Below are positions 18,755 through 30,577 of a stretch of 64,000 bases of DNA, in pieces. Source of the DNA: Vulcanisaeta souniana JCM 11219 (GTDB taxonomy: Archaea > Thermoproteota > Thermoprotei > Thermoproteales > Thermocladiaceae); assembly GCF_026000775.1 (NCBI RefSeq), contig NZ_AP026830.1, positions 829,056-893,055 on the forward strand, given 5' to 3'. A model generated the notes under the pieces. It saw nothing but the letters and a program-made list of their open reading frames with translations. It had not been told where the DNA came from and ran no database searches. A program made the translations under genes and the position numbers. The first letter of the stretch is position 1, and each line of letters starts with the position of its first letter.

Positions 18755-19009
18755 TTACCTAACCTTTGTTATCGGTAGTTTTCCGTTTCTTAAGTCATTT
18801 ATTAATTGAACGACCTCATTTACCGCAGCCTCCAGTATTGCCTTGCCCTTCTCCTGGCTTGCCCTCGATGGGTATCCCTGCACGGCCTTCGTATACTCCA
18901 TCGCATAGACCTCCTTCCCATACACCCTAAACCTCACCTCAACCCACTCATCGGCTGAGCCATCCCTCGGAATCCACTTGACCAGGTCTGGGTATGCTGC
19001 CCAGACCTG
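18755..19009 (-). pseudogene. Gene fragment lacking a start
   Basis: An open frame reads VWAAYPDLVKWIPRDGSADEW, VEVRFRVYGKEVYAMEY, and ends AVNEVVQLINDLRNGKLPIT. The sequence is protein-like (amphipathic, charged) but begins with no start codon; a stop lies just beyond. A first Met exists at 18937. Its 5' end carries a perfect 10-bp inverted repeat (CAGGTCTGGG / CCCAGACCTG, 18983-19009). The ending resembles LIRELDNGKIPNL of the frameshifted gene at 22462, so both may be pieces of one family. Confidence 0.45.
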
Positions 19010-19154
19010 AAATCGACTATAAACTATAAACTATTATATCAATAATACTAGTAATGATTAATGATTAATGAAGTATGTATGTAATACGTATTCGGCTACC
19101 TAATCCTAAACGACATATCAATGCATGACTGGCAATCATTGCCGTTTGGTCCTT

Positions 19155-19325
19155 TTAAATGATTACTGCGCCATTAACAATACTAATACTTGAGTAAATT
19201 CCAGTCGAGTTAATTATTAGGGCTGGGTTGTTAAGTTGCTTAGGTATGTTATCAATAAGCGTAGCCCTTTTCACGCACTGCCACCGACTATTAACATGTA
19301 CAAATGAGCATTCGTTATCGCTGAA
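19155..19325 (-). pseudogene. C-terminal remnant of a secreted glycoprotein
   Basis: Open for 57 codons with no start: SDNECSFVHVNSRWQCVKRA, NNPALIINSTGIYSSISIV, ending NGAVII. The two Cys, Asn-rich content and sequon (NST) match the surface-protein genes nearby. A TGA precedes it. Remainder of the 19.0-19.6 kb stretch shows nothing else convincing except the next fragment. Confidence 0.35.
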
Positions 19326-19464
19326 TCAACCAATCCCAGGAGTTAAAGGGTTAAGCACCGACATTTCAACCCCATATAGACAAAAAGGCGGTATTTAAAC
19401 CCGCCACCTCGGAAGTACAAACCTACACATAGCAAGCACAAACTCCTTAAATTCAGCATTGTTA

Positions 19465-19623
19465 TTATCTCCGTGGGCTTTCCATGCCTAGTATGATGGT
19501 TGGGGCCAATGTCTCTAGGTGTAGGCTGCTGTCGATGGCCCTACCCACGTTAATGACTCCAACCCTTCCATCACCAACCACATTAACGAAATCGCTCGAA
19601 TCACCTTTGTGGATACCCGAGGT
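19465..19623 (-). pseudogene. Remnant resembling the 16412 surface protein
   Basis: Open for 52 codons between stops with no start: KGDSSDFVNVVGDGRVGVIN and SSLHLETLAPTIILGMES. VINVG then L-x-L then P-x-IIL resembles FVINVGNYTAYALELDNYL plus AGPSIILF of the protein at 16412. Weak alone, but it sits amid other remnants of the same type. Confidence 0.3.
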
Positions 19624-19634
19624 TTAGAAAGTCC

Positions 19635-19838
19635 GTGGGTTTTACCACCCTCGATGGTTATGGACTCCAAATATTCCCAGCCCTAGTACAATCACTAATT
19701 AGTTACCCACTCATTGAGTGGTCAAGCATTAGGCGCATCGTCGGTGCCCTGGCGGCCATGTGCATGATCTTCGCCCTACTAATGGGCATACTACCCACAG
19801 TACTAAACTCAGTGGGTTTAACGGCGGTGATTGCTTAA
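19635..19838 (+). pseudogene. Fragment with hydrophobic helix, start region like that upstream of 16412
   Basis: Frame VGFTTLDGYGLQIFPALVQ continues to IVGALAAMCMIFALLMGILP and ends SVGLTAVIA. The 40 bases at 19628-19667 (AAAGTCCGTGGGTTTTACCA and on) resemble 16361-16400 (AAAGTCCGTAAGATTTATTA and on), where the matching frame SVRFITLDGCGVEVVG hits a stop just before the 16412 start. So a conserved leader peptide or promoter segment is duplicated here, joined to a short TM piece. Not a complete known gene. Confidence 0.35.
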
Positions 19839-19946
19839 TCCTAAATGCCTTCAGTGCACCACCTCCTTTGGCAGGTTTTATTAAGGCACAAGACACCGCC
19901 TAGACAATTGGGTAATGTTTTAATTTGCTTGTTGGTTTGTTGTTTC

Positions 19947-20663
19947 ATGCCTGGTAAGGTTTTGGTTGTTGGTGTTGTGGTTGCCGTTGTTGTTATAGCC
20001 ATTGCCTTGATCCTACTGATGCATCCATTCGCCTCGAAGCCGTCGGTGGCTTACCTAACCGTTAACGCCCCATACGCATTCTTGAGACCTTTGGGGAGTG
20101 GGCAGTACGAACTATTCTACTACGATCAACAAGGCAATTTACACGACTTAGGAACATACAACGTATCCAGCACAGTATTGAATGAGGCAGTTAATGAAAT
20201 CAACTCATTCAACCAACAGAATGCCGGAACAATCATTAATGGGCAAAACTTCATACCATTAAGCTACGAAGTGGTTATAGGAAACTCAACAGGAGTAGTA
20301 AAGATACCGATACAGGGAAACACAATACTGCTGGATAAAGTCAACCCAGGATACTGGACAGTACTGGTAACAGACCAAAACGATTTAACAAAACTAGCAT
20401 ACGCACTAGACGTAGGATACAAAGAAGCAGCAACAGTATCAGGAACATCAAACCTATGGTACCAACAAGGAGTAGGAACAATATTAACCGAAACTTTTGA
20501 TTTAGGTAAGTATGCACTCAATCCATCCTTCGCAGGAGCAAATTTGATAATAACTAATAATGGAACATTTATTCCATTTGCATACATGCTTGGTACTAAC
20601 CAAAATTCCTATAGCTATCAGTTGACTTTCGTAGAACAATCTGACACTAATGTTTATAGCTAG
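19947..20663 (+). CDS. Signal-anchored secreted protein
   Basis: 238 residues from ATG 19947, chosen because GTTTTAATTT lies about 26 bp upstream (a longer frame opens at 19845). Residues 3-30 are a signal-anchor (VLVVGVVVAVVVIAIALILL). The ectodomain is Tyr/Gln/Asn-rich and beta-like (SGQYELFYYDQQGNLHDLG; LILTETFDLGKYALNP-like stretch) with sequons NSS, NST and NGT and no Cys. Codon use turns strongly AT-rich in the last third, up to the convergent gene 3 bp away. Function unknown. Confidence 0.65.
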   Translation: MPGKVLVVGVVVAVVVIAIALILLMHPFASKPSVAYLTVNAPYAFLRPLGSGQYELFYYDQQGNLHDLGTYNVSSTVLNEAVNEINSFNQQNAGTIINGQNFIPLSYEVVIGNSTGVVKIPIQGNTILLDKVNPGYWTVLVTDQNDLTKLAYALDVGYKEAATVSGTSNLWYQQGVGTILTETFDLGKYALNPSFAGANLIITNNGTFIPFAYMLGTNQNSYSYQLTFVEQSDTNVYS

Positions 20664-20666
20664 TCT

Positions 20667-21221
20667 CTAAGAAGGTACAGTTAACTCATATGGAACTCCG
20701 AAAGTAGCAATAACCCAATCTAAATACATATAACCAAAGCCCCCGCCTGAACCAGACGCAATAAATATATATGGCTGATTCAAATAATTAGTTATATTTT
20801 CAATCAAAGGTTCTATTGTAGGAGCATTAGGATAATTTTCCTTGTATCCAAATGTTCCATCAATAAAACCGTTTTGTAAATTTATTTCTTGATAGTTATT
20901 CAAAGCTACAGAATTTTCGGCTTCGAATGCTGTTTGATATGCGTTTTGGTAACTTGTCGCTAAGTACGTTGATGGTGGTAATGGTGATAACGTATATGCA
21001 CCTATAGATGGAACATACTGCATTGGTAAGTTATTATTGTAAATGTTTCCATTAACCATGAAGTAAACATTTAATGCATTTTGACCACTTTGATCTGGAG
21101 AAAACCAATAGTATGTATAAAGTACTCCATAGTACATATAATTTTGATTATTTTGCTGATCCTGTGGAGCAAATGGTATGTAGCCGGTGCTTGTCGTTGC
21201 CCAGAGTCTGTCATCGAATGA
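20667..21221 (-). pseudogene. Tyr/Asn-rich secreted-type protein without a start
   Basis: The frame is open from a TAG at 21222 and reads DDRLWATTSTGYIPFAPQDQ, then an Asn-rich linker, then YYGVLYTYYWFSPDQSGQNA, to a stop at 20667. The first Met (21137) lies inside the domain, so the N-terminus, including any signal peptide, seems lost. A Gly-rich turn ASGSGGGFGYMYLDW comes near the end. AT-rich and unlike flanking sequence on the right (from 21.2 kb). Resembles surface or viral structural proteins in composition only. Confidence 0.5.
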
Positions 21222-21311
21222 CTAATCGGCAACATTGATTCCCCTCAATTGGTCCTTATAATTTGGTTACGCCTGCGCTGGGTATTTAAGTCGTTGCTGG
21301 GAAGCGAGCCA

Positions 21312-21965
21312 ATGGGCTTTACTAAGCATTTACTTGCTGGTGTTTTTGGTGCCCTACTCTTCCTAGCCCTCTACCTGCTCGTCGTTTGGTTTCAGTTTCG
21401 CCTGATTGGTAGCTCCACGTTCATGCGTAGCCTCGGCCCGTACTCACCACTCGTGGTTCACATCGGTCACGTTGGGCTTGACCTGGTGCCGGTAATCATT
21501 GACGCCGTTGTTTTGGCAATGCTTACCCTAACCAGCCTTGGTTCTTTGAGTGAGTTGGTTAGGGCTTTGGAATTAACGGTAGTTGTCTCGGTAATCATCG
21601 CCTCAACAACCTCACTGGCCTACCTGCTGATTATTCACGGCTTGAGCGGCTTGTCTATCTACGAGTTTAGCTCACTCACGATATTTACAGCGTTGATGAC
21701 CGACGTAATTGCAGTAATGGCAATATGCATGCTGATTAAAGCCAAGGAGTGCCTAAGGCCCAGGGCCCTAGCCCTAATAACATACGCCAACGCATTAATC
21801 ATTGACTACCTAATCGATTCATTAAACTCAACGGTTATCGCCGCCATGAAGGGATTAGAACCAGTGATTGGGGCCTTGGGGCCGGTGGATGGCTTAGTGA
21901 TTGACCCACTACTGATCATGGCGATGGCTTACCTAACCCTCCGCTTAACTCGTAATAAGTCGTAA
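21312..21965 (+). CDS. Six-TM membrane protein, unknown
   Basis: 217 residues from ATG 21312 (MGFTKHLLAGVFGALLFLAL); a longer frame opens at 21249. About six TM helices: 8-30, 60-85, 95-120, 130-155, 165-185 and a C-terminal one (LLIMAMAYLTLRL). Short loops, basic C-terminus. No transporter signature recognised. Sits alone after the AT-rich block, with base composition back to the genomic norm. Confidence 0.6.
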   Translation: MGFTKHLLAGVFGALLFLALYLLVVWFQFRLIGSSTFMRSLGPYSPLVVHIGHVGLDLVPVIIDAVVLAMLTLTSLGSLSELVRALELTVVVSVIIASTTSLAYLLIIHGLSGLSIYEFSSLTIFTALMTDVIAVMAICMLIKAKECLRPRALALITYANALIIDYLIDSLNSTVIAAMKGLEPVIGALGPVDGLVIDPLLIMAMAYLTLRLTRNKS

Positions 21966-22019
21966 CTACCCTTAACATGGTGCTTTTAACCTGGGCGGCG
22001 GATCATTGAGATTGGGTGA

Positions 22020-22421
22020 CTAACATGTCAATGCCCAGATGTCCAAGCCACCTATCACCCGACCACAGAAGGCGCCCAGTGGCGTTACCCCTGTTGAGGC
22101 TGGCGCAAAGTTTTTCGGTAATATCCCTGATAGGTTTACCTTGAGTGATGTGCATTTGCCGAGGGTTATCGCGGTAACCGTACCCCAAATACTCGATTGA
22201 TAATTAACATCGACTGCGCATGCAGCACAACATGCTATGCGATTATTCGACCAATCCACTACGTAAAAAATCAGTAAATCACCAGGGTTGATGGCAAACC
22301 TACCATCAAGCCTAACCTTACAGCCACCGCATACACCTGAGCAGTTATCTACCTTAATCAACCAACAATTCCGCATCATAAGCAAACCGGCCTTTGTAGT
22401 TACTGAAATCAACCTCAACAC
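22020..22421 (-). CDS. Cys-rich hypothetical protein (possibly frameshifted)
   Basis: 133 residues at most. The first half looks real: CWLIKVDNCSGVCGGCKVRL, then ACCAACAVDV, a Cys spacing that could bind metal. Near 22200 a second frame (YGYRDNPRQMHITQGKPIRD, to a stop at 22003) looks as protein-like as the annotated one, so a frameshift may lie there. No family recognised; coding status is uncertain. Confidence 0.3.
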   Translation of the reverse strand: MLRLISVTTKAGLLMMRNCWLIKVDNCSGVCGGCKVRLDGRFAINPGDLLIFYVVDWSNNRIACCAACAVDVNYQSSIWGTVTAITLGKCTSLKVNLSGILPKNFAPASTGVTPLGAFCGRVIGGLDIWALTC

Positions 22422-22461
22422 TCGCAGACAGCACTCAACTTAATGCGTGCCTGATGAATAC

Positions 22462-22798
22462 GTGAGCATATGCAGGAAGGTGTCGAAATACCCAACACTA
22501 CTCCTAACCAGTGGTGACTACGGTGAGTGGGTTAGGGAGTTCTGGAGGGAGCTTAACCCCGGGCGAGAAGTTAATCGTGGCCAGGGAGATAGCCAAGGCA
22601 CTGGAGTTTCCGGGCATTAGGGTTGGTGAGGATGATGTTAGGCGATTAATTCGCGAGCTCGATAATGGTAAGATCCCCAACCTAGGCTTTAGGGTCATGG
22701 CCATACTATGCCCATGCGAAGACCCACTACTGATGAATTATAGCCCGAGTGATTACGAGAGTAACTGCAGGGAATGGAGAATGAAACACGAGGCCTAA
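22462..22798 (+). pseudogene. Hypothetical protein with a single-base frameshift
   Basis: From GTG 22462 the frame reads RKVSKYPTLLLTSGDYGEW then VREFWRELNPG. At the run CCCCGGGC (about 22556-22563) the sense passes to the +1 frame: GEKLIVAREIAKALEFPGI, RVGEDDVRRLIRELDNGKIP, to the stop at 22796. Removing one base in the C/G run restores a ~110-residue protein. The final CPCEDPLLMNYSPSDYESNC holds three Cys. Family not recognised; its RELDNGKIP resembles the end of the 18755 fragment. Confidence 0.5.
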
Positions 22799-22821
22799 GG
22801 CCCCGCGCAACCATTATCGTA

Positions 22822-23016
22822 TTAACCACCAGCACTATTTAACGTTTGAAAGTATATATCAATGGCATTGCAGGGCACGTGAAGAAGAGAGTTAGTGGCG
22901 TACTTCTCAGCATAGTTCCACATTAATTGTATGCAGGATGTCTTATAACCCAGTAAGTTTAACAATACGTTAAGCATCGTTGCATCATGCCTAGGCTTAA
23001 GTATTAAAATAGCCAT
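22822..23016 (-). CDS. Short hypothetical ORF
   Basis: 64 residues beginning MAILILKPRHDATMLNVLL. The start resembles crenarchaeal proteins that open with ILKPRHD-x-T, but homology is too short to name. TATA-like CTTTAAATAG is only about 10 bp before the ATG, closer than usual. May be a remnant. Confidence 0.25.
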   Translation of the reverse strand: MAILILKPRHDATMLNVLLNLLGYKTSCIQLMWNYAEKYATNSLLHVPCNAIDIYFQTLNSAGG

Positions 23017-23226
23017 GTTATTGCTATTTAAAGGCCAGGAACCCTCTTACTAAGAATCCCCAGATTATCCCTAATGAAATTAGCAAGAATTAGGCATGGG
23101 TTCAAGCCATCCTTAGATCTGCAGTCCTCAAAGCCCATTGAATGAGAATAGAAAGTAGGCTAATATACTTAACCTCAATTAATGAACCATTAACTAAACC
23201 GCTTTAGCAATGTGTTTTTCGTTAAC

Positions 23227-23871
23227 TCACACGGCGTAGTGCATCCCAATTAAGTGTTCATACTCCACTAATCCCAATAGTTGGGTGGGTAGTTTGTTCA
23301 TGAACTCCTCATGACTCTTCCTAACCATTTCGCCGTTGTTAATGCTCCCCCTGTCTAGTAGGTATAGGAAGAATTCGTGGTACAGTATTCGCGTGACTTC
23401 GTCACGGGTGACTACAATGTCTAGGTTAACCCTCTTGTATCCTTCTAAGTGTCTCCTGCAGTTTATTGTGAGGGCTAGTGGGTGTGCGTAGTACTCCCTT
23501 TGGCATGGATTCCAAGGGATGCCTAGGCTGTTGATGATTTGTGGGTGTAGGTCGTAGACTGGTTGGAACCTAAAGCCATTAGTCTCATCAGGCTCACACT
23601 CAAATAGTCCACGTATGAATTCCCAGAATTTATTAACGGCGCTGCCCTTTATGAAAATATCAACATCACCAACATCGCCACAGCACTTTAAGCCTGCGAG
23701 GCACTTAGCAACACCACCAATGATTATTACATCATTAAGAACGCCCAATTGGGAGGAAACCCTCTTAATGCAATCAATGATGTAACAGCTCTCTCTAGGA
23801 AGACCCGACCTGCATTGAGTACCTTGACCCATCAAATACCTAGGCATCCCACCCCTCAAAAACTTCATCAC
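23227..23871 (-). CDS. Nucleotidyltransferase-fold protein
   Basis: 214 residues. VIIIGGVAKCLAGLKCCGDV followed by GDVDIFIKG is the minimal nucleotidyltransferase pattern: GG-x-A then D-x-D, with a third acidic position in VNLDIVVTRDE. This resembles the DUF4433/AbiEii-like or CCA-like minimal NTases that modify tRNA or protein targets. Nine Cys, several paired (CC at 66-67), is unusual. No HEPN or other toxin partner is adjacent, so it may be a solitary NTase. The start may be the internal Met in GGMPRYLMGQG. Confidence 0.6.
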   Translation of the reverse strand: MMKFLRGGMPRYLMGQGTQCRSGLPRESCYIIDCIKRVSSQLGVLNDVIIIGGVAKCLAGLKCCGDVGDVDIFIKGSAVNKFWEFIRGLFECEPDETNGFRFQPVYDLHPQIINSLGIPWNPCQREYYAHPLALTINCRRHLEGYKRVNLDIVVTRDEVTRILYHEFFLYLLDRGSINNGEMVRKSHEEFMNKLPTQLLGLVEYEHLIGMHYAV

Positions 23872-24044
23872 TACCTAAACCAAGCGTTACTCCACGACAA
23901 CCAGGAAGGAACCCTGCATTGGGCTCCTCGGCGTTATTAAAAATATGATTGTTAAATCGTCAGTTATTTGGGATAGAAAGACTTATGAAAAGCCTAGTAG
24001 GACCTCGAACTCTTAAGACCTCAACACAGTAGGTGGTTGTCTAA

Positions 24045-24150
24045 TGGGTTGGTGATCGAGTTCATTATGAAACCATTGAAATGGCAACCAACGAAAAGGG
24101 GCTAATAAGTAAGGACAAAGCCCTAGATGCGCTAGGGATTTGCTTGTGAG
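24045..24150 (+). pseudogene. Gene fragment homologous to the window's right-edge gene
   Basis: Frame VHYETIEMATNEKGLISKDK then ALDALG meets a stop; one base back, DLLVSIEYEERYHRQGL continues. About 60 bases here (AATAAGTAAGGACAAAGCCC onward) match the reverse complement of 63935-64000 at roughly 80% identity, with the same frame break. Both are parts of an unidentified charged helical protein; this copy stops soon after. The rest of 23.87-24.30 kb shows nothing else. Confidence 0.45.
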
Positions 24151-24303
24151 CATTGAGTATGAAGAGAGATATCACAGACAAGGGTTGTAGAGAACTTGAT
24201 AAATTAATAACTACCAAATACCGCGAACAGGATAAGGGATAATATTTCAGTTATTTTATCCGATAGTTTTATGTATTTTTTACTTTCGCTGTACTAGTTA
24301 AAA

Positions 24304-24663
24304 ATGATAAGTGATACGATTACTAAGGTACTTGGATACCTTACGGAGTTCTTTGTATCGTTGTTATGGAATATTTCAATTACCATTGCATTTATTCTAA
24401 TAGCGCATGCGCCTAGTTGTCTCAGCAGTATACCCATTTTTACATATAGTCCATTCTACTCGTCGCTTCTTCGATTAATACCGATTTATTACGTGGGTCT
24501 ATTAGTGGTTGGTTTCGTAATCGCGCTTGCTACGAAAATCGAAATCGTTGGGTCACTCTGTAGATCCTACCTGCTTTACGGTGTAAGTTTCGACTTACTC
24601 GATTGGGGTGATGCCATAACCCTATTACTAAGTCTCATAGTGCTGTTATTAATCATCACATGA
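24304..24663 (+). CDS. Small membrane protein, four TM
   Basis: 119 residues with hydrophobic stretches at about 18-36, 55-75, 78-95 and 100-119; ends directly in the last helix (LLSLIVLLLIIT). ATG 24304 follows a GTACTAGTTAAAA promoter-like sequence. No charged motif or family recognised. Could be an orphan holin-like or accessory protein of the neighbouring accessory zone, but nothing shows that. Confidence 0.5.
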   Translation: MISDTITKVLGYLTEFFVSLLWNISITIAFILIAHAPSCLSSIPIFTYSPFYSSLLRLIPIYYVGLLVVGFVIALATKIEIVGSLCRSYLLYGVSFDLLDWGDAITLLLSLIVLLLIIT

Positions 24664-25362
24664 TGAGTACTTTAGGTAAGCTTAGCAATTGCCATTAATA
24701 CTGCGTTAAGTGCCATTGGAGTTAATGAAGCATTCGTACAAGCATGCTACTTAACCTGCGGGTGTCTTTAACTGCATTAGTGAGATTGTGTATAAGATTA
24801 ACAATCATTAATCTCATCGCATCATCCTAAAAATAAACACGGTTCAAGCCTAAGATACCACCTCAACTACCCCATGCCTTAATTACTAATAATGCTCTAA
24901 GGGCTTGTTAATCACTCAGTGAAGTCCTTCTCTGGGCATTTCCGTAACCATAAACATAGGTGAAGTCATACGCTAAACCACCAATAATTCACCAAAATTC
25001 TTATATAGAGATATACATTAGTATGGTGTACGCATAAATAATTTTTCAATATCCTAATTAAAATCTTCTCTCACTGTGACGTACATGAAATGAAACATTA
25101 AGAGTCTCCTAACGTCAGCCATACACTCCACCCTATAGAGGACCAATTACCTACTTAAGAGCGAGAGAGACCTACGAAGTGATCCTTCAAGTCCTCAAGG
25201 AATTAAGCCAGTCAATGCCTGGACCAACAAATATTACGGCAAATATACCTTGAATGATTTCCCAGACTTTATGATCTACTTTCTCTTAAGTTCAACGTTA
25301 CCATGAAGATAGAGAGGCACAATTAAGAAGTATTTTTTATTTTAGACCCTTAGAACGCAAAA
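24664..25362. other. 700-bp accessory intergenic stretch
   Basis: Mostly AT-rich without ORFs. One remnant is open on the plus strand at about 25139-25306: KSERDLRSDPSSPQGIKPVN then AWTNKYYGKYTLNDFPDFMI, ending at TGA 25304, with no start codon. This looks like a gene 3' end. A TATA-like TTCTTATATAGAGATAT lies at about 24999-25015 but no gene follows it. Confidence 0.4.
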
Positions 25363-25373
25363 ATTAAAAATAC
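25363..25373 (+). promoter_or_regulatory. TATA box of the radical SAM operon
   Basis: ATTAAAAATAC lies about 26 bp before the ATG at 25394, the expected place for a leaderless transcript covering both genes of the operon. Confidence 0.5.
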
Positions 25374-25393
25374 CTCTACGATTAAGTATAATA

Positions 25394-25882
25394 ATGATAA
25401 AAGATGTAAAAATATCTAAGTCAACTCAGCAAACCACGGAAAATAACGCTAAAGATCAAGACTTCATAGTCCCATACTTGTTAGAAACTTCTCAGGAATA
25501 TATTTCTAATGAAGATTACGAAATTAAAGAACTTAAGCTTAATGATTATAAAAATTATTATTTAATTCCTAAAGAAGTAAAGTACGTAGAGGGGCGAATG
25601 CCATGGAACCCATGGCAGCACGCTCAACACCCCAAACCTGCAGTACTTGTAAAAAGTAAAGGATGCGTAGACTTAAATGCGCTCCTTTCAAGCTACGTTG
25701 ATTTAAGATGGGAAGGTGATTTTGCTTTAATTTACAATAAAGTAACTTCATTAGTTTTCATGAGTAGCAGAGGTATTCATGATTTAATAATGTCCATGCT
25801 TAAGAGACCTGTTAAAGAATTAAAGGAAAAATATCCGCATATTTATGAGACCTTACTTATTAATGTTAAAGGGTGCCAATGA
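25394..25882 (+). CDS. Radical SAM partner protein with PqqD/RRE-like C-terminus
   Basis: 162 residues. N-terminal ~45 are polar and disordered-looking. Residues ~60-85 hold a striking EGRMPWNPWQHAQHPKPAVL motif (Trp-Pro-Trp, two His). The C-terminal third (GDFALIYNKVTSLVFMSSRG, then IHDLIMSMLKRPVKELKEKY) follows the PqqD / RiPP-recognition pattern: beta hairpin with 'LYN--T--VFLS-RG', helix, then '-V-EL---YP'. The stop overlaps the next ATG (ATGA), so translation is coupled to the radical SAM gene. Most likely a leader-binding or substrate-presenting partner; it could instead be the substrate. Strongly AT-rich compared with the window. Confidence 0.6.
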   Translation: MIKDVKISKSTQQTTENNAKDQDFIVPYLLETSQEYISNEDYEIKELKLNDYKNYYLIPKEVKYVEGRMPWNPWQHAQHPKPAVLVKSKGCVDLNALLSSYVDLRWEGDFALIYNKVTSLVFMSSRGIHDLIMSMLKRPVKELKEKYPHIYETLLINVKGCQ

Positions 25883-26898
25883 TGCTTTTTAATTTAAATG
25901 CTGATAAAGCACCTTGGCCAAAAACACCCCTTATTATTCAATTTGAGATAACATCATCGTGCAATTTGAATTGCATATATTGCTATGCAAAGCCGTTCAC
26001 GAATAAGATCATGAGATTTGAGGACTTTAAATATTTAGCTGATAAGACTTATAATGAGGCAAAACCTTTTGAATTTGGCATACTTGGTGGTGAACCATTC
26101 CTTCACCCTCAAATATTAGATATTATTGAATATTCGCTAGGAAAATTCCCTAGCGTAGGAATAAGTACTAATGGAACTTTAATATGGAAGCTAAGTAAAG
26201 ATGATTTAATAAGGTTAAAGTATGCTGTAGAATCTGGATTAGATTTACAGATATCGCTTGATTCTCATATATCTAGTATACATGATGCCGTTAGAGGATC
26301 TTTTAATCTTACATTAAAATCCCTCTACGTTTTAGAGAAATACAATATTCCGTTCACAATAGGTATAGTAGTGACGAGTGTAAATGCTCCTACATTAATC
26401 GAAACTGTTGAATGGTTAATAACAAACTTTAAAAATATTGAGAAGATTCATTTTGAAAATGTTATGCCCTCAGTAATTATGGATAGGGATTTATACTATA
26501 AATTAAGGCTAAAAGACCCCATAAAGTTTTGGCGTTCTATAACGCCTAAACTTGCTGAATTGAGTAGAAAATATAATGTATATATTGATTTACCTTTTAC
26601 AAATAACGCTAATCTTCACTATGTTATGCAGAATATTAACTATGGACTATGCCTAGCTGGGATTACAAGGGCTATTGTAAAGGTGGATGGTACAATTGTA
26701 CCTTGTGAATTGGTCCATACACTTAAGTTAGGCAACTTATATAAGGAGGATTGGCATACGATATGGGAAAGGGCACGTAAAATTATGTTAACTATTAACG
26801 AAAAAATAGTAAAAGGTCTTCAATTAAAAGGCTATGGACTATGCAGATTAATGAATTTAGAAAAAATAATTACCCCCAATGATATAGAGACCTTTTAA
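25879..26898 (+). CDS. Radical SAM enzyme with twitch/SPASM-like C-terminus
   Basis: 339 residues from ATG 25879. CNLNCIYC (about residues 27-34) is the CxxxCxxC motif that binds the [4Fe-4S]-SAM cluster; GILGGEPFLHP is the GGE SAM-binding motif; GISTNGTLI follows, as in peptide-modifying enzymes. The C-terminal GLCLAGITRAIVKVDGTIVP then CELVHTLKLGNLY then IW is a SPASM/twitch start (C-x-AG, DG-x-x-x-PC, GNL). Only three C-terminal Cys are visible (in GLCLAG, VPCEL and GYGLCRL), so one auxiliary cluster (twitch-like) is likelier than two. Coupled to the RRE-like gene. Known relatives act in RiPP maturation and anaerobic sulfatase maturation; no sulfatase is near. Confidence 0.85.
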   Translation: MMLFNLNADKAPWPKTPLIIQFEITSSCNLNCIYCYAKPFTNKIMRFEDFKYLADKTYNEAKPFEFGILGGEPFLHPQILDIIEYSLGKFPSVGISTNGTLIWKLSKDDLIRLKYAVESGLDLQISLDSHISSIHDAVRGSFNLTLKSLYVLEKYNIPFTIGIVVTSVNAPTLIETVEWLITNFKNIEKIHFENVMPSVIMDRDLYYKLRLKDPIKFWRSITPKLAELSRKYNVYIDLPFTNNANLHYVMQNINYGLCLAGITRAIVKVDGTIVPCELVHTLKLGNLYKEDWHTIWERARKIMLTINEKIVKGLQLKGYGLCRLMNLEKIITPNDIETF

Positions 26899-27353
26899 TA
26901 AAAAGGCAATTCTAATTCCATTTGTAAATTTTTGTCTATTTAAGTTTCATAGTCTCTAGCGGGAGTTTGCGTTATTATCTATGTCCTAATTAATACTAGA
27001 CAATAAGCCCGGCAATACTAACACCCCCATCATCAATATCATGGGAAAATTTCTAAATAATTTCAGGAAAAGACTTGAAAAATCGTATAATCCACGACGC
27101 AAACAATCGCAGGCGCTTACGTCGTGACTCCGTGGGCTTTCACGAAGTCGTTAATCGTGGCTTCGTGAGAAATTATTCTACCGTGGCTAGCCAACTGGGT
27201 GGGGTTCTACGTATGGTTAACTCCGGTGGGTCGTGGTTTTTCGTTTCATGGTGTTGCGGTGTTCACGACTTTCCGTGTGCTCACGTAAATAGCCCATCCA
27301 TTCACGGCTTGTGTTTGGGTGGTTGGGCCTTTTAAGGTGTCTTCATTGTTTTA
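26899..27353. other. Intergenic stretch with composition switch
   Basis: The AT-rich operon ends near 26940 and sequence becomes GC-rich from about 27080. A hairpin (CACGAAG / CTTCGTG) lies at about 27144-27170. An 86-codon frame at 27075-27335 has Cys/Trp-heavy, low-complexity sequence and no family likeness; I do not accept it. No small precursor-peptide ORF following the radical SAM gene was convincing. Confidence 0.4.
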
Positions 27354-27866
27354 ATGATGCGTTTGTGGTTCCTGGTTTTTCATGCCGAGCCTAGGGACTT
27401 GGTGTTTAATAGGAATGCGGTAATTGGCGCTGCGGAGGTTTGGGTTGATGTGGGTAACTGCCTCGTTGGGGTTGGTGGTGTTGATTACGTGGTGGTTGGG
27501 GTGGGGGTGCTTTCCAAACTGGTTGATGCGGCTAGGGAGGGCTTTAGGGCGAGGACTGCCTACCCACCAATGCTCATGAACTCCACATCCTACTTCCTGG
27601 CTAAGCTCGGATTACCCAGGTACATGTACAAGGTCATTGCCGCAGACCCCTGGGTTGTGCCGTTCAAGGCGGTTGGTGACTTGGGCCTTGTTAGGAATAT
27701 TGCCTACCTACACGGCATTCTGGAGCTGGTTAGGGGTTGGGGTAGGGTTGGTAGGAAGACCTCATACACAATACACGCACTACTGAGGGCGTCAGGGTAC
27801 AACGCGGATGAGGGGTTGGCATCGAGGGCTAGGCTACCGATGCCATGCAGGTTAAGGCTGACATAA
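27354..27866 (+). CDS. Uncharacterised GC-rich ORF
   Basis: 170 residues: begins RLWFLVFHAEPRDLVFNRN, with AAEVWVDVGNCLVGVGGVDY, later YFLAKLGLPRYMYKVIAADP and a basic C-terminus. A TTTTAAGG TATA-like box lies about 23 bp before the ATG (27330-27337), supporting expression. The alternating pattern in the first 60 residues suggests a beta sheet; the rest is helical. GC-rich relative to the flanking genes. No family recognised. Followed at once by a second promoter and the structured region. Confidence 0.5.
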   Translation: MMRLWFLVFHAEPRDLVFNRNAVIGAAEVWVDVGNCLVGVGGVDYVVVGVGVLSKLVDAAREGFRARTAYPPMLMNSTSYFLAKLGLPRYMYKVIAADPWVVPFKAVGDLGLVRNIAYLHGILELVRGWGRVGRKTSYTIHALLRASGYNADEGLASRARLPMPCRLRLT

Positions 27867-27871
27867 ACCCC

Positions 27872-27880
27872 CTTTTAAAC
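27872..27880 (+). promoter_or_regulatory. TATA box before structured GC-rich RNA
   Basis: CTTTTAAAC lies about 25 bp before the first stem of the structured region (27900), but no acceptable start codon follows. This placement supports a non-coding transcript. Confidence 0.45.
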
Positions 27881-27898
27881 CAAGCCATAGGCAATTAC

Positions 27899-28025
27899 AG
27901 AGGTGATGAGCCCCCGAGGTAGAGCACCCGGGGTTCGCCCGGGTGAAGCCCTCGGTTTGGGTGATCCAACGCGGCCGCCCCCGTGGGTAGTGCGGAGGCT
28001 TGGGCAATGAGGGGCTCATTGACTG
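27899..28025 (+). ncRNA. Putative structured RNA, novel
   Basis: Behind a TATA box, a closed fold can be drawn. Outer stem: 27904-27914 (TGATGAGCCCC) pairs with 28011-28021 (GGGGCTCATTG), 11 pairs including two G-U. Inside, CCGAGG 27914-27919 pairs with CCTCGG 27950-27955, enclosing the strong hairpin CACCCGGG-GTTCG-CCCGGGTG (27925-27945). TTGG/CCAA (27957-27969) follows. GC content far exceeds flanking coding DNA, the usual mark of ncRNA in a hyperthermophile. I looked for RNase P, SRP RNA, tRNA and C/D-box signatures and did not find them. Confidence 0.45.
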
Positions 28026-28135
28026 CGCATGCGGTCAATACCTCGGTGATGTCGATGATAGCAACAAAGCCACCTAGCCACTCACTCCCCAAGCCCGCCC
28101 CGCGCCCACTCCCTCCCCACACCCCTTACGAGCTA

Positions 28136-28227
28136 GTGCCGAGGCCTCCCTGGTTAGGGGGGCTCTCGGCACGTGAGGTTGGGCTGTTGGGCTGTAGGGA
28201 GCCTAAGCCCCAGAGCCGAGTGCCGAG
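28136..28227 (+). other. Strong hairpin with a duplicated arm
   Basis: GTGCCGAGGCCTCCC (28136-28150) pairs with GGGGGGC plus CTCGGCAC (28157-28172) around a 6-base loop: 15 pairs with a one-base bulge and one G-U. The 5' arm core GTGCCGAG is repeated exactly at 28220-28227, so CTCGGCAC could pair with either copy. Part of the same GC-rich tract (27.9-28.6 kb); overlapping ORFs here on both strands are low-complexity Pro/Arg/Gly and not accepted as genes. Confidence 0.5.
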
Positions 28228-28395
28228 GGCGCCACCTCGGTCGGCGGATATGGGGCCATGGGATCCACACCCGCCACCGAGGATGGCGGGGGGTGGGGCG
28301 GGGTGGGTTTGGGGATTGTAAGATGCAATTACTTCCAGAAGACCCTGGGCTAGAAAGAACAATAGGCATTTATTGCGTGGTTTATGTGGGATGCT

Positions 28396-28415
28396 GTTTC
28401 ACGGGTACGTGAAAC
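28396..28415. repeat. Perfect inverted repeat
   Basis: GTTTCACG-GGTA-CGTGAAAC, 8-bp arms around 4 bases, about 170 bp before the PaREP2b start. Could be an operator or an element end; no partner copy was seen at the 3' end of PaREP2b. Confidence 0.5.
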
Positions 28416-28474
28416 AAGCTACCAATGAAAAGGCCGAGTAGCGAAGGAATTTGGTGTGGGGAACCCTAGGCATT

Positions 28475-28574
28475 GCTGAACAAACGCCTTTAACCACCCC
28501 GTGGGCCTCCCCGTTGGGGCGCCAACCCATTGGGTGGTACGGCCCCGCGGGGACAGCCCACGGGGCGATTCAGC
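28475..28574. repeat. Nested inverted repeats in the PaREP2b leader
   Basis: Outer arms GCTGAA (28475-28480) and TTCAGC (28569-28574); inner arms CCCCGTGGGC (28497-28506) and GCCCACGGGG (28556-28565), both perfect; inside lie smaller palindromes (CCCCGTTGGGG, CCCCGCGGGG). It ends 15 bp before the PaREP2b ATG. Could be a leader RNA controlling translation or a cruciform at an element boundary. Confidence 0.55.
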
Positions 28575-28588
28575 ATAAGGTGGTGGGC

Positions 28589-30070
28589 ATGGCAGGGGAG
28601 GTAGAGAGAAAAATGGGTAACTCAAATCAAAACAACGGGGAGGGGGTGGGCCAAAGGCCCAACAACCCAACAACCAAGCCAAGGGCGGGTGGGGAAGAAA
28701 TACCAAACAAACCGCCACAAGCCATAGATGAGGAGACAAAGAAAATTCTTGAGGAGGTTAGATCAAGAGTAATGAGTAAACTGGGTGAAATAGATAATGT
28801 ATTCAATAGGGTGATTGAGGATTTAACGAGGTTTAAGTATCATTTAGTATCCTTAGCGGAGAAGTACGCGGAGAATGCTGATAATATTAAGGCGTTTACA
28901 GAGACGGTTGAGGAAATAGTGCAGTACGTGGATAGGGTTAAGCAATGGTACAAGGATAAGGTCTATAGTGAGGTCATTAGACTATTTAAGAGCTTTAGGG
29001 ACGTTGAAATAAGAATAAGGAAGAAGGGAATAACGATAAGAGGAAGATACGTGACGATAAGTGCTTCTAAAGCTGGTAGAACTGATGGTGGAATTACAGT
29101 GAAGTTTATAATTAAGGGTATCGGTAGTATTAATGTTAATGCGCTTCCTTTAATTCCAGAGCCAATAAGGATGTCAATACAAGTAGGGCTTATGAACACT
29201 GACGGGTATATTGATAAGAGAGGAAATCGGCCATGTATGAAGACTTCACACTTATGGCAAGTTATTCTATGGCTTCTCGCGTTCCCAGGAAAAACCACTG
29301 TTAGAATTGAGCTTCATGTAAATAAGAAAGAAGTGAAAGTCGCATGGACGTTGAGATCCCTTAACTACGCGTTTAAGATGAAACCTCAACCTCAGGATAC
29401 CCTAGATCCTCTACTTACTATCTTTGCTGCAATATTGGGTGATGGCACAATCACTAAACCTCGTAAACTTCGTGTAAGTTTTGCGACGTCAAAGGAGACA
29501 TTATGGAAAGAACTATTAGAGGGATGGCATAAGCGTAGTATACGTAAATTAACGGTGGCGGACGTATACACGTCATATGCCGTTGAGGTACTTAAGAGGA
29601 TATATCATGATGTTGCTATTAAAAGCCAAATATTGTTAGATATCTTGAGCATTCTGGCTATGCTTAATGATGCCGAAAAGATTAGGCGATTTTTTATGGG
29701 TTTAGAGACACGGTTTAAGAAGCCAAAATATAGCATTATCCTTTGTGGTAAAAAGTTTACGGTTATTCTTGATGGCGGTTATTTGCGTCTTGAGTGTGAA
29801 ATTAAGCCTGATGAGGAAGCGAGGATTATTGAGTGTTTAAGGGCTAAGGGAATCGTTGCGCGTGCAAAGGGTAAGAGAAGTCGAATAGTCACGGTATCAT
29901 CCAGTGAAGTGAGGAGGATGGTTAAGATGGATGAGAAATTGAGGGAAAGTATTACGGCAGTACTCTGCAAAAGGTATTACGACACGACAGATGAGAAAAA
30001 GAGACAAGCAATCAGAAGATACTTAATGGAACTCGCACCCATAGAGGGGGCGGCCGCAGCTATATATTAA
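28589..30070 (+). CDS. PaREP2b-family protein with LAGLIDADG-like motifs
   Basis: 493 residues from ATG 28589, just after the nested palindrome (the frame is open to 28451, but that part reads palindromic, Pro/Gly-rich non-protein-like sequence). Residues ~65-150 are helical with coiled-coil character; the core QVGLMNTDGYIDKRG (about 205-220) and LLTIFAAILGDGTI (about 285-300) look like the two LAGLIDADG-type helices of homing endonucleases. Multicopy family first described in Pyrobaculum aerophilum, where most copies are broken; this one is intact. It lies against a truncated creatininase gene, consistent with mobility. Confidence 0.75.
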   Translation: MAGEVERKMGNSNQNNGEGVGQRPNNPTTKPRAGGEEIPNKPPQAIDEETKKILEEVRSRVMSKLGEIDNVFNRVIEDLTRFKYHLVSLAEKYAENADNIKAFTETVEEIVQYVDRVKQWYKDKVYSEVIRLFKSFRDVEIRIRKKGITIRGRYVTISASKAGRTDGGITVKFIIKGIGSINVNALPLIPEPIRMSIQVGLMNTDGYIDKRGNRPCMKTSHLWQVILWLLAFPGKTTVRIELHVNKKEVKVAWTLRSLNYAFKMKPQPQDTLDPLLTIFAAILGDGTITKPRKLRVSFATSKETLWKELLEGWHKRSIRKLTVADVYTSYAVEVLKRIYHDVAIKSQILLDILSILAMLNDAEKIRRFFMGLETRFKKPKYSIILCGKKFTVILDGGYLRLECEIKPDEEARIIECLRAKGIVARAKGKRSRIVTVSSSEVRRMVKMDEKLRESITAVLCKRYYDTTDEKKRQAIRRYLMELAPIEGAAAAIY

Positions 30071-30577
30071 TGCCGCATGGCCCTCCGGCGTTTCTAGAAC
30101 CTTCTTCCTGGCTTCCTTTGCTAGGTCTATCCACCAGTTTATGATTATTATGACCAGGTTCGTCTCCTTGGCCACGTCCTTTGCCGCCATGTTTAGGGCG
30201 TCCGCGTTGCCTCCATGTCCGTTAATGACGATCAGGTACCTAATGCCGTTCCTAGCTACCTCCCTGAATATGTCCCTGTAGAGCATGTATAGTGTCTCAT
30301 TGCTTATGGATATGGTGCCGGGGAACTTATCGAGCACGTACGTATTCCCATACCAAACAGTGGGCAGTAGGAGCACGTTGGTCCTCTTTGCGGCCTCCTC
30401 GGCTATGTAAGTGGCCATTAACGCATCCGTACCCAGTGGTAAGTGTGGTCCGTGGGCCTCGACAATCCCCGTCGGTAGTAGGGCCACTGTCTTATCGACC
30501 TTTTCAAACTCAGGCCAGGTAAGTTCCCACCAACGCATTAACCATTGAATTGATAACGCCCTTAAATGCAATACCAC
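30071..30577 (-). pseudogene. Creatininase-family amidohydrolase, 3' end lost
   Basis: About 165 residues remain. Metal-ligand motifs are in place: IVEAHGPHLPLGTDALMATY (Glu, His, Asp) and VINGHGGNADALN. The last recognisable piece is LETPEGHA, where the family continues with a Gly-Glu-x-E-T-S segment; here it reads ALIYSCGRPLYGCEFH and runs antisense into PaREP2b. About 60 residues are gone. Intact relatives hydrolyse creatinine or formamide intermediates (ArfB). Truncation coincides with the 3' end of PaREP2b. Confidence 0.8.

Follow-up and report, generated by a model that had tools for sequence, protein, structure and literature searches.

Among the described systems closest to the gene pair considered here, the sporulation killing factor maturase SkfB combines a radical SAM core with a twitch end that carries one auxiliary cluster. 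Its crystal structure displays an RRE domain together with a twitch domain, in which three cysteine ligands are visible and one site is open (PMC6231123); the RRE is fused to the enzyme and the precursor, SkfA, is a separate protein. SuiB, a Lys-Trp cyclase of the streptide type, likewise possesses a fused RRE, a radical SAM domain and a C-terminal cluster domain, the latter being a complete SPASM that holds two auxiliary clusters (PMC6231123); it is associated with a short precursor. RREs are defined by an order of three strands followed by three helices (PMC12710340). In PqqD/PqqE, MftB/MftC and GeoRSP a small partner, which is a discrete RRE protein, accompanies a SPASM/twitch radical SAM enzyme, and in the case of darobactin a radical SAM enzyme is known to cross-link tryptophan (PMC9055067). 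Archaeal peptide-modifying radical SAM systems appear to be scarcely described in the literature searched.

The pair comes from the hot-spring archaeon Vulcanisaeta souniana JCM 11219 and was analysed within a window, that is, the whole stretch of 64,000 nucleotides at positions 829,056-893,055 of the forward strand of NZ_AP026830.1 (assembly GCF_026000775.1). We favor, with a probability of roughly 45% for the explanation as a whole, the reading that its two genes, P0001 and P0002, constitute a horizontally gained two-gene modification module:

25364-25372, plus strand: TATA-like TTAAAAATA, candidate promoter of a leaderless operon, read by eye
25394-25882, plus strand: P0001, orphan partner protein, 162 aa
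25589-25630, plus strand: EGRMPWNPWQHAQH stretch of P0001 (residues 66-79), which may serve as substrate or for recognition, from the sequence
25694-25858, plus strand: C-terminal third of P0001 (residues 101-155), possible RRE-like domain, from AlphaFold secondary structure at low confidence
25882-26898 (with an ATG also at 25879), plus strand: P0002, radical SAM enzyme with a twitch-like end, 338 aa

The open reading frames, their coordinates, the motifs CNLNCIYC and GGEPF and the ATGA overlap given in the original prediction could all be verified directly. The stop of P0001 and the start of P0002 overlap as ATGA at 25879-25882, and the two are real genes which are coupled through it. The TATA-like element, as read by eye, lies ~26 nt upstream of the P0001 ATG, a spacing that agrees with archaeal promoters. 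The pair had further been described as AT-rich relative to its flanks, and this is borne out by GC fractions of 0.33 for P0001 and 0.32 for P0002 against 0.43-0.50 for most of the window. In 300 order-2 Markov shuffles of the AT-rich stretch, read in six frames, the longest open frame had 151 codons (mean 72); as P0002 with its 338 codons exceeds this maximum, its frame is not due to chance.

P0002 scores above the Pfam cut-offs both for Radical_SAM (PF04055; 53.6 bits against 29.5) and for SPASM (PF13186; 27.5 bits against 21.5). We aligned it with 39 relatives (the 40-sequence alignment A3), and the positions that bear on its predicted clusters are:

25960-25983, plus strand: CNLNCIYC, radical SAM [4Fe-4S] ligands C27, C31 and C34, the cysteines invariant in A3
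26086-26100, plus strand: GGEPF, SAM-binding motif, GGE invariant in A3
26650-26652, plus strand: C257, first Aux I-type cysteine kept, invariant in A3
26704-26706, plus strand: C275, second Aux I-type cysteine kept, invariant in A3
26842-26844, plus strand: C321, third cysteine kept, aligned in A3 with the final Cys of CGGC

All A3-invariant residues are retained in P0002, including C27/C31/C34, GGE, N97, C257, C275 and C321. The C-terminal cysteines of A3 that it keeps are exactly C257, C275 and C321, which we take to be the Aux I ligands by the usual anSME numbering; it has neither the CxxC pair nor the remaining Aux II cysteines. Thus, despite the PF13186 score, P0002 lacks the set of approximately seven cysteines at the C-terminus, covering Aux I as well as Aux II, that is expected of a two-cluster SPASM protein, whereas the presence of Aux I-type cysteines only, together with a fold match to SkfB, MoaA and BtrN, assigns it a twitch-like, one-cluster pattern, the cluster itself being predicted. 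A frameshift that might conceal a fuller SPASM end was sought by eye just past 26840 and none was seen. Judged by sequence, then, the cysteine pattern is an ordered one, unlike random decay, and P0002 is an intact if very divergent radical SAM enzyme; both the radical SAM identity and the truncated SPASM/twitch end proposed earlier hold up, the former through PF04055 and the invariant CxxxCxxC, the latter through reduction of the SPASM cysteines to three.

Many named radical SAM families are matched weakly by P0002. None of the NCBIfam equivalog cut-offs (ScmE, AlbA, AhbD, GeoRSP, MftC, WgkB, PapB, viperin) is exceeded; the top score is 77 bits against a cut-off of 400 and the remainder are likewise far below theirs, with AlbA, WgkB, mycofactocin maturase and GeoRSP among the best of these matches. 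A prokaryotic viperin, with a role in defence, was considered and rejected, the NCBIfam viperin score being 42 bits against a cut-off of 180; the viperin-like PADLOC match (E 5e-16) spans the radical SAM core only.

The AlphaFold model of P0002 built from A3 (pLDDT 78, pTM 0.82) finds as its best PDB fold matches SuiB (E 2e-13) and SkfB (E 8e-13), both RiPP maturases, with BlsE, anSME, MoaA, CteB, EpeE and PqqE further down the list. The best PDB match by sequence is again SkfB (E 5e-11 with P0002 alone, 2e-49 with the A3 profile). These results agree with the earlier suggestion of a radical SAM enzyme of the peptide- or protein-modifying type, a placement which they support without proving it. 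At the same time the differences from both maturases are clear: unlike SkfB, P0002 has no N-terminal domain, has a separate orphan partner and spaces its cysteines otherwise than the CX33CXC of SkfB, and its identity to SuiB, the best fold match, is 18-19%.

In the phylogenetic tree P0002 joins a group of archaeal proteins in which a PqqD-like domain at the N-terminus precedes a radical SAM-SPASM module in one fused chain (support 85/91). This placement is uncertain because P0002 forms the longest branch of the tree (3.02 changes per site), which calls for caution about long-branch effects. Its tree neighbours (L011/L058, L012, L063, L074 and L111) differ from it in having the fused domain and a fuller SPASM cysteine set, at 23-30% identity; the N-terminal domain of L011 scores as PqqD (24.4 bits against a cut-off of 23.4) and that of L012 is sub-threshold. 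In one taxonomic family of the Thermoproteota (f16; loci L030, L037, L039, L040 and L044-L046) there is a ~212-aa protein in which a DUF59/MIP18-like N-terminal domain, as judged by eye, is fused to PqqD, and no radical SAM ORF was found within about 1.5 kb of it. Relatives of P0002 were sought in the phylum at 1e-30, in the class at 1e-19 and in a scan of genome contigs, so that those in the wider phylum lying between the two thresholds could have escaped; all relatives from the class search and among the matches listed in the contig scan have 22-33% identity. A radical SAM gene ~28% identical to P0002 is also present on small Klebsiella and Escherichia plasmids of 4.8-7.7 kb (H1-H6).

Many of the bacterial relatives, among the matches listed, resemble the AhbC/AhbD haem enzymes, and these keep in play the reading that P0002 acts on a small molecule, such as a cofactor, a tetrapyrrole or a nucleotide, with P0001 as an accessory or unrelated protein. 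The generic similarity of P0002 to the AhbD, NirJ and MoaA profiles and the viperin-like PADLOC match point in the same direction. However, the AhbD, NirJ, MoaA and viperin-type profiles all score far below the NCBIfam cut-offs, the top folds are those of RiPP maturases and no genes of a small-molecule pathway were recognised in the insert that carries the pair, and we regard a small-molecule substrate as distinctly unlikely.

P0001 is more enigmatic. No family of Pfam, NCBIfam or PADLOC matches it, and its PHROG match (phrog_32553, E 0.004) has no function assigned there. Searches at E 0.01 found nothing credible in 45 genomes of the order or in 398 Thermoproteota genomes of 163 genera (a draw from a larger group), nor was there anything credible in plasmids, phages, viral contigs or ~210 fetched loci. 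By homology P0001 is hence an orphan in the data searched. The pairing, for which the original prediction had proposed a search in other genomes, was accordingly encountered in none; yet this does not refute the pairing, since P0001 itself was absent from all of them and was never found apart from the enzyme. Several apparent matches were discarded: L010, at first a possible viral homologue, owes its match to the chance presence of KEKYPHIYE in a large viral protein; a DNA-level search of viral contigs for a W-N/H-P-W-Q-H pattern yielded three frames, all out of context and attributable to chance; and FERM domains, retrieved as a fold at E >= 0.3, come from a poor model.

The single-sequence AlphaFold model of P0001 has a pLDDT of 35 and no fold match. 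Within it, residues 101-155 are predicted in the order E-E-e-H-H-H (pLDDT about 35), and to this extent the PqqD/RRE-like layout originally proposed for the C-terminal third fits the strand and helix order of an RRE. The similarity searches did not sustain that proposal: besides the lack of a Pfam match, the PF05402 profile found nothing in the P0001 locus at E up to 1, and hhalign of P0001 against archaeal PqqD-like domains performed no better than a shuffled sequence. The predicted layout, the coupling of the genes and the domain architecture of the relatives of P0002 give only a hint that P0001 may be an RRE. Similarly, the pair recalls PqqD/PqqE, MftB/MftC and GeoRSP in combining a small partner with a SPASM/twitch radical SAM enzyme, but differs from them in that P0001 lacks a PqqD match and P0002 is far below the family cut-offs. 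In its chemistry the pair probably follows a known type, namely radical SAM/twitch modification with a partner protein, whereas as a system it is new by sequence comparison: it is above no named-family threshold and is known from one genome.

The EGRMPWNPWQHAQH segment of P0001, rich in Trp, Pro and His, is predicted in the low-confidence AlphaFold model to be irregular and to lie between a hairpin and the C-terminal domain. It is conceivable that P0001 is itself the substrate, with P0002 modifying the WNPWQHAQH loop, for instance through a cross-link centred on Trp or His as in three-residue cyclophane peptides, and with the C-terminal part of P0001 serving as its own recognition domain. The predicted want of regular structure in this segment is consistent with such a role, as is the tryptophan cross-linking described for darobactin in the source cited above. 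The same can be said of the precursor search: no separate precursor-like ORF is present in 24650-27100, as the original prediction had also found, and besides in-frame fragments of the pair this interval holds ATG ORFs of at most 31 aa and one 60-aa antisense frame, so that it lacks the short precursor gene of a RiPP-cluster operon. Conversely, P0001 is lengthy for a precursor, the motif has no homologue in the searched data and none of the neighbouring ORFs could be recognised as belonging to a protease or exporter family. On balance we consider modification of P0001 unlikely; its most elaborate form, in which the pair would represent a new archaeal class with recognition domain and modified WNPWQHAQH substrate in one protein, carried as a two-gene mobile cassette, is very doubtful.

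We therefore return to the reading of the pair as a modification module. P0002 would cleave SAM at the cluster bound by CNLNCIYC (CxxxCxxC), generating a 5'-deoxyadenosyl radical that would take a hydrogen from a side chain or an alpha-carbon of a peptide or protein, with a cross-link or another C-centred modification as the outcome. One auxiliary Fe-S cluster of the Aux I type, bound by three cysteines and probably leaving a site open as in SkfB and MoaA, might function in substrate binding or in oxidation of the radical. P0001 would be the dedicated partner of P0002, made together with it by translational coupling, and its C-terminal third would most likely bind the substrate, like the fused N-terminal PqqD/RRE of the archaeal relatives of P0002. 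The preserved catalytic and SAM motifs, the retention of Aux I-type cysteines only, the fold, the overlap of the genes and the insertion are what the analysis shows, and the peptide or protein substrate, the binding role of P0001 and the type of bond are what we infer; the enzymatic part of the scheme appears reasonably probable, while for P0001 as the binding partner the odds are about even at best. Counted against the module are the lack of PqqD/RRE similarity in P0001, its unusable model, the lack of any known precursor gene, conserved neighbour or target, the uncertain placement of P0002 on its long branch and the AhbC/AhbD-like appearance of many bacterial relatives. If it works as proposed, the pair would be a minimal modification module of a hyperthermophilic archaeon, with a one-auxiliary-cluster enzyme and a separate, unrelated partner. 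As a thermostable system of two proteins that brings its own candidate substrate, it would be easily testable.

The genomic setting of the pair is a set of nested inserts:

19009-30071, no strand: outer insert, 11 kb, splitting a creatininase-family gene; in two sister genomes the gene is whole and the site empty
30072-30577, minus strand: 5' part of the creatininase-family gene, whose 3' part extends up to 19008
21183-27026, no strand: inner insert of ~5.8 kb, carrying the pair and breaking gene B (20667-21137, minus strand)

Two sister genomes (G015 and G018) lack 19009-30071, and in them the flanks are joined via 17-18 bases (G015 L139 15581-15599; G018 L142 14795-14812) inside an intact creatininase-family gene. 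These target bases are missing in the present genome and a target duplication is not evident. As for the inner insert, 19910-21182 (80%) and 27034-27157 (88%) match one contiguous stretch elsewhere in G015; homology to this contiguous copy ends at 21182 and restarts at about 27027-27034, and gene B, of 204 aa in G015, is cut to 156 aa here. Besides the pair, the inner insert holds an orphan nucleotidyltransferase-like ORF and a gene with multiple membrane spans from a repeated family. Its GC fraction is uneven, being ~0.41-0.52 over most of 21200-24200 and 0.28-0.39 across 24600-26950, and for this reason the AT-rich operon may be a further inserted piece in its own right. With the mapped edges of these inserts and the split creatininase gene, the earlier view of a recent transfer among decayed genes gains substance, and horizontal gain of the pair, as judged from these comparisons, is strengthened. 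The nested inserts also illustrate a route by which such orphan enzymes enter genomes.

Such surroundings could also suit a decaying, nonfunctional remnant of a transferred operon from which other genes, including the true precursor, have been lost. The broken genes and nested inserts around the pair, the short C-terminus of P0002 and the failure to find a copy elsewhere speak for this. Against it, the frames of 338 and 162 codons have both stayed open, with a GC content of 32-33%, every invariant residue of P0002 is kept and its cysteine loss is ordered; decay of this kind has in our view a small likelihood.

The nucleotidyltransferase-like ORF, P0003 (23227-23871, minus strand), is an orphan assigned by eye from GG...DVD...LDI, for which 398 genomes yielded no credible relative; a match in G147 was rejected as a poor alignment to a protein of another architecture. 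A count prompted by eye located DNA encoding PWNPxQ at only two sites in the 2.43-Mb genome, in P0001 and P0003, which are 2.1 kb apart in the same insert, and the reversed control pattern had zero occurrences. BLASTP of P0001 against P0003 gives E 0.003, but we do not claim a shared origin, as similar scores on the PWNPxQ segment are reached by two frames of the window that are unrelated.

Other parts of the inserts recur in related genomes. An ORF at 21249-21965 (plus strand), with several apparent membrane spans, is found again at G000:C1:271550 and in several sister genomes at 70-76% DNA identity. The ORFs at 19845-20663 (plus), 20667-21137 (minus) and 28451-30070 (plus) belong to a unit that occurs repeatedly and is made up of a membrane-anchored gene, its divergent partner gene and a repeat-family protein of 540-650 aa. 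The same unit is present elsewhere in G015 (L141 8731-12917) and partly in G017, and it may be mobile or paREP2-like.
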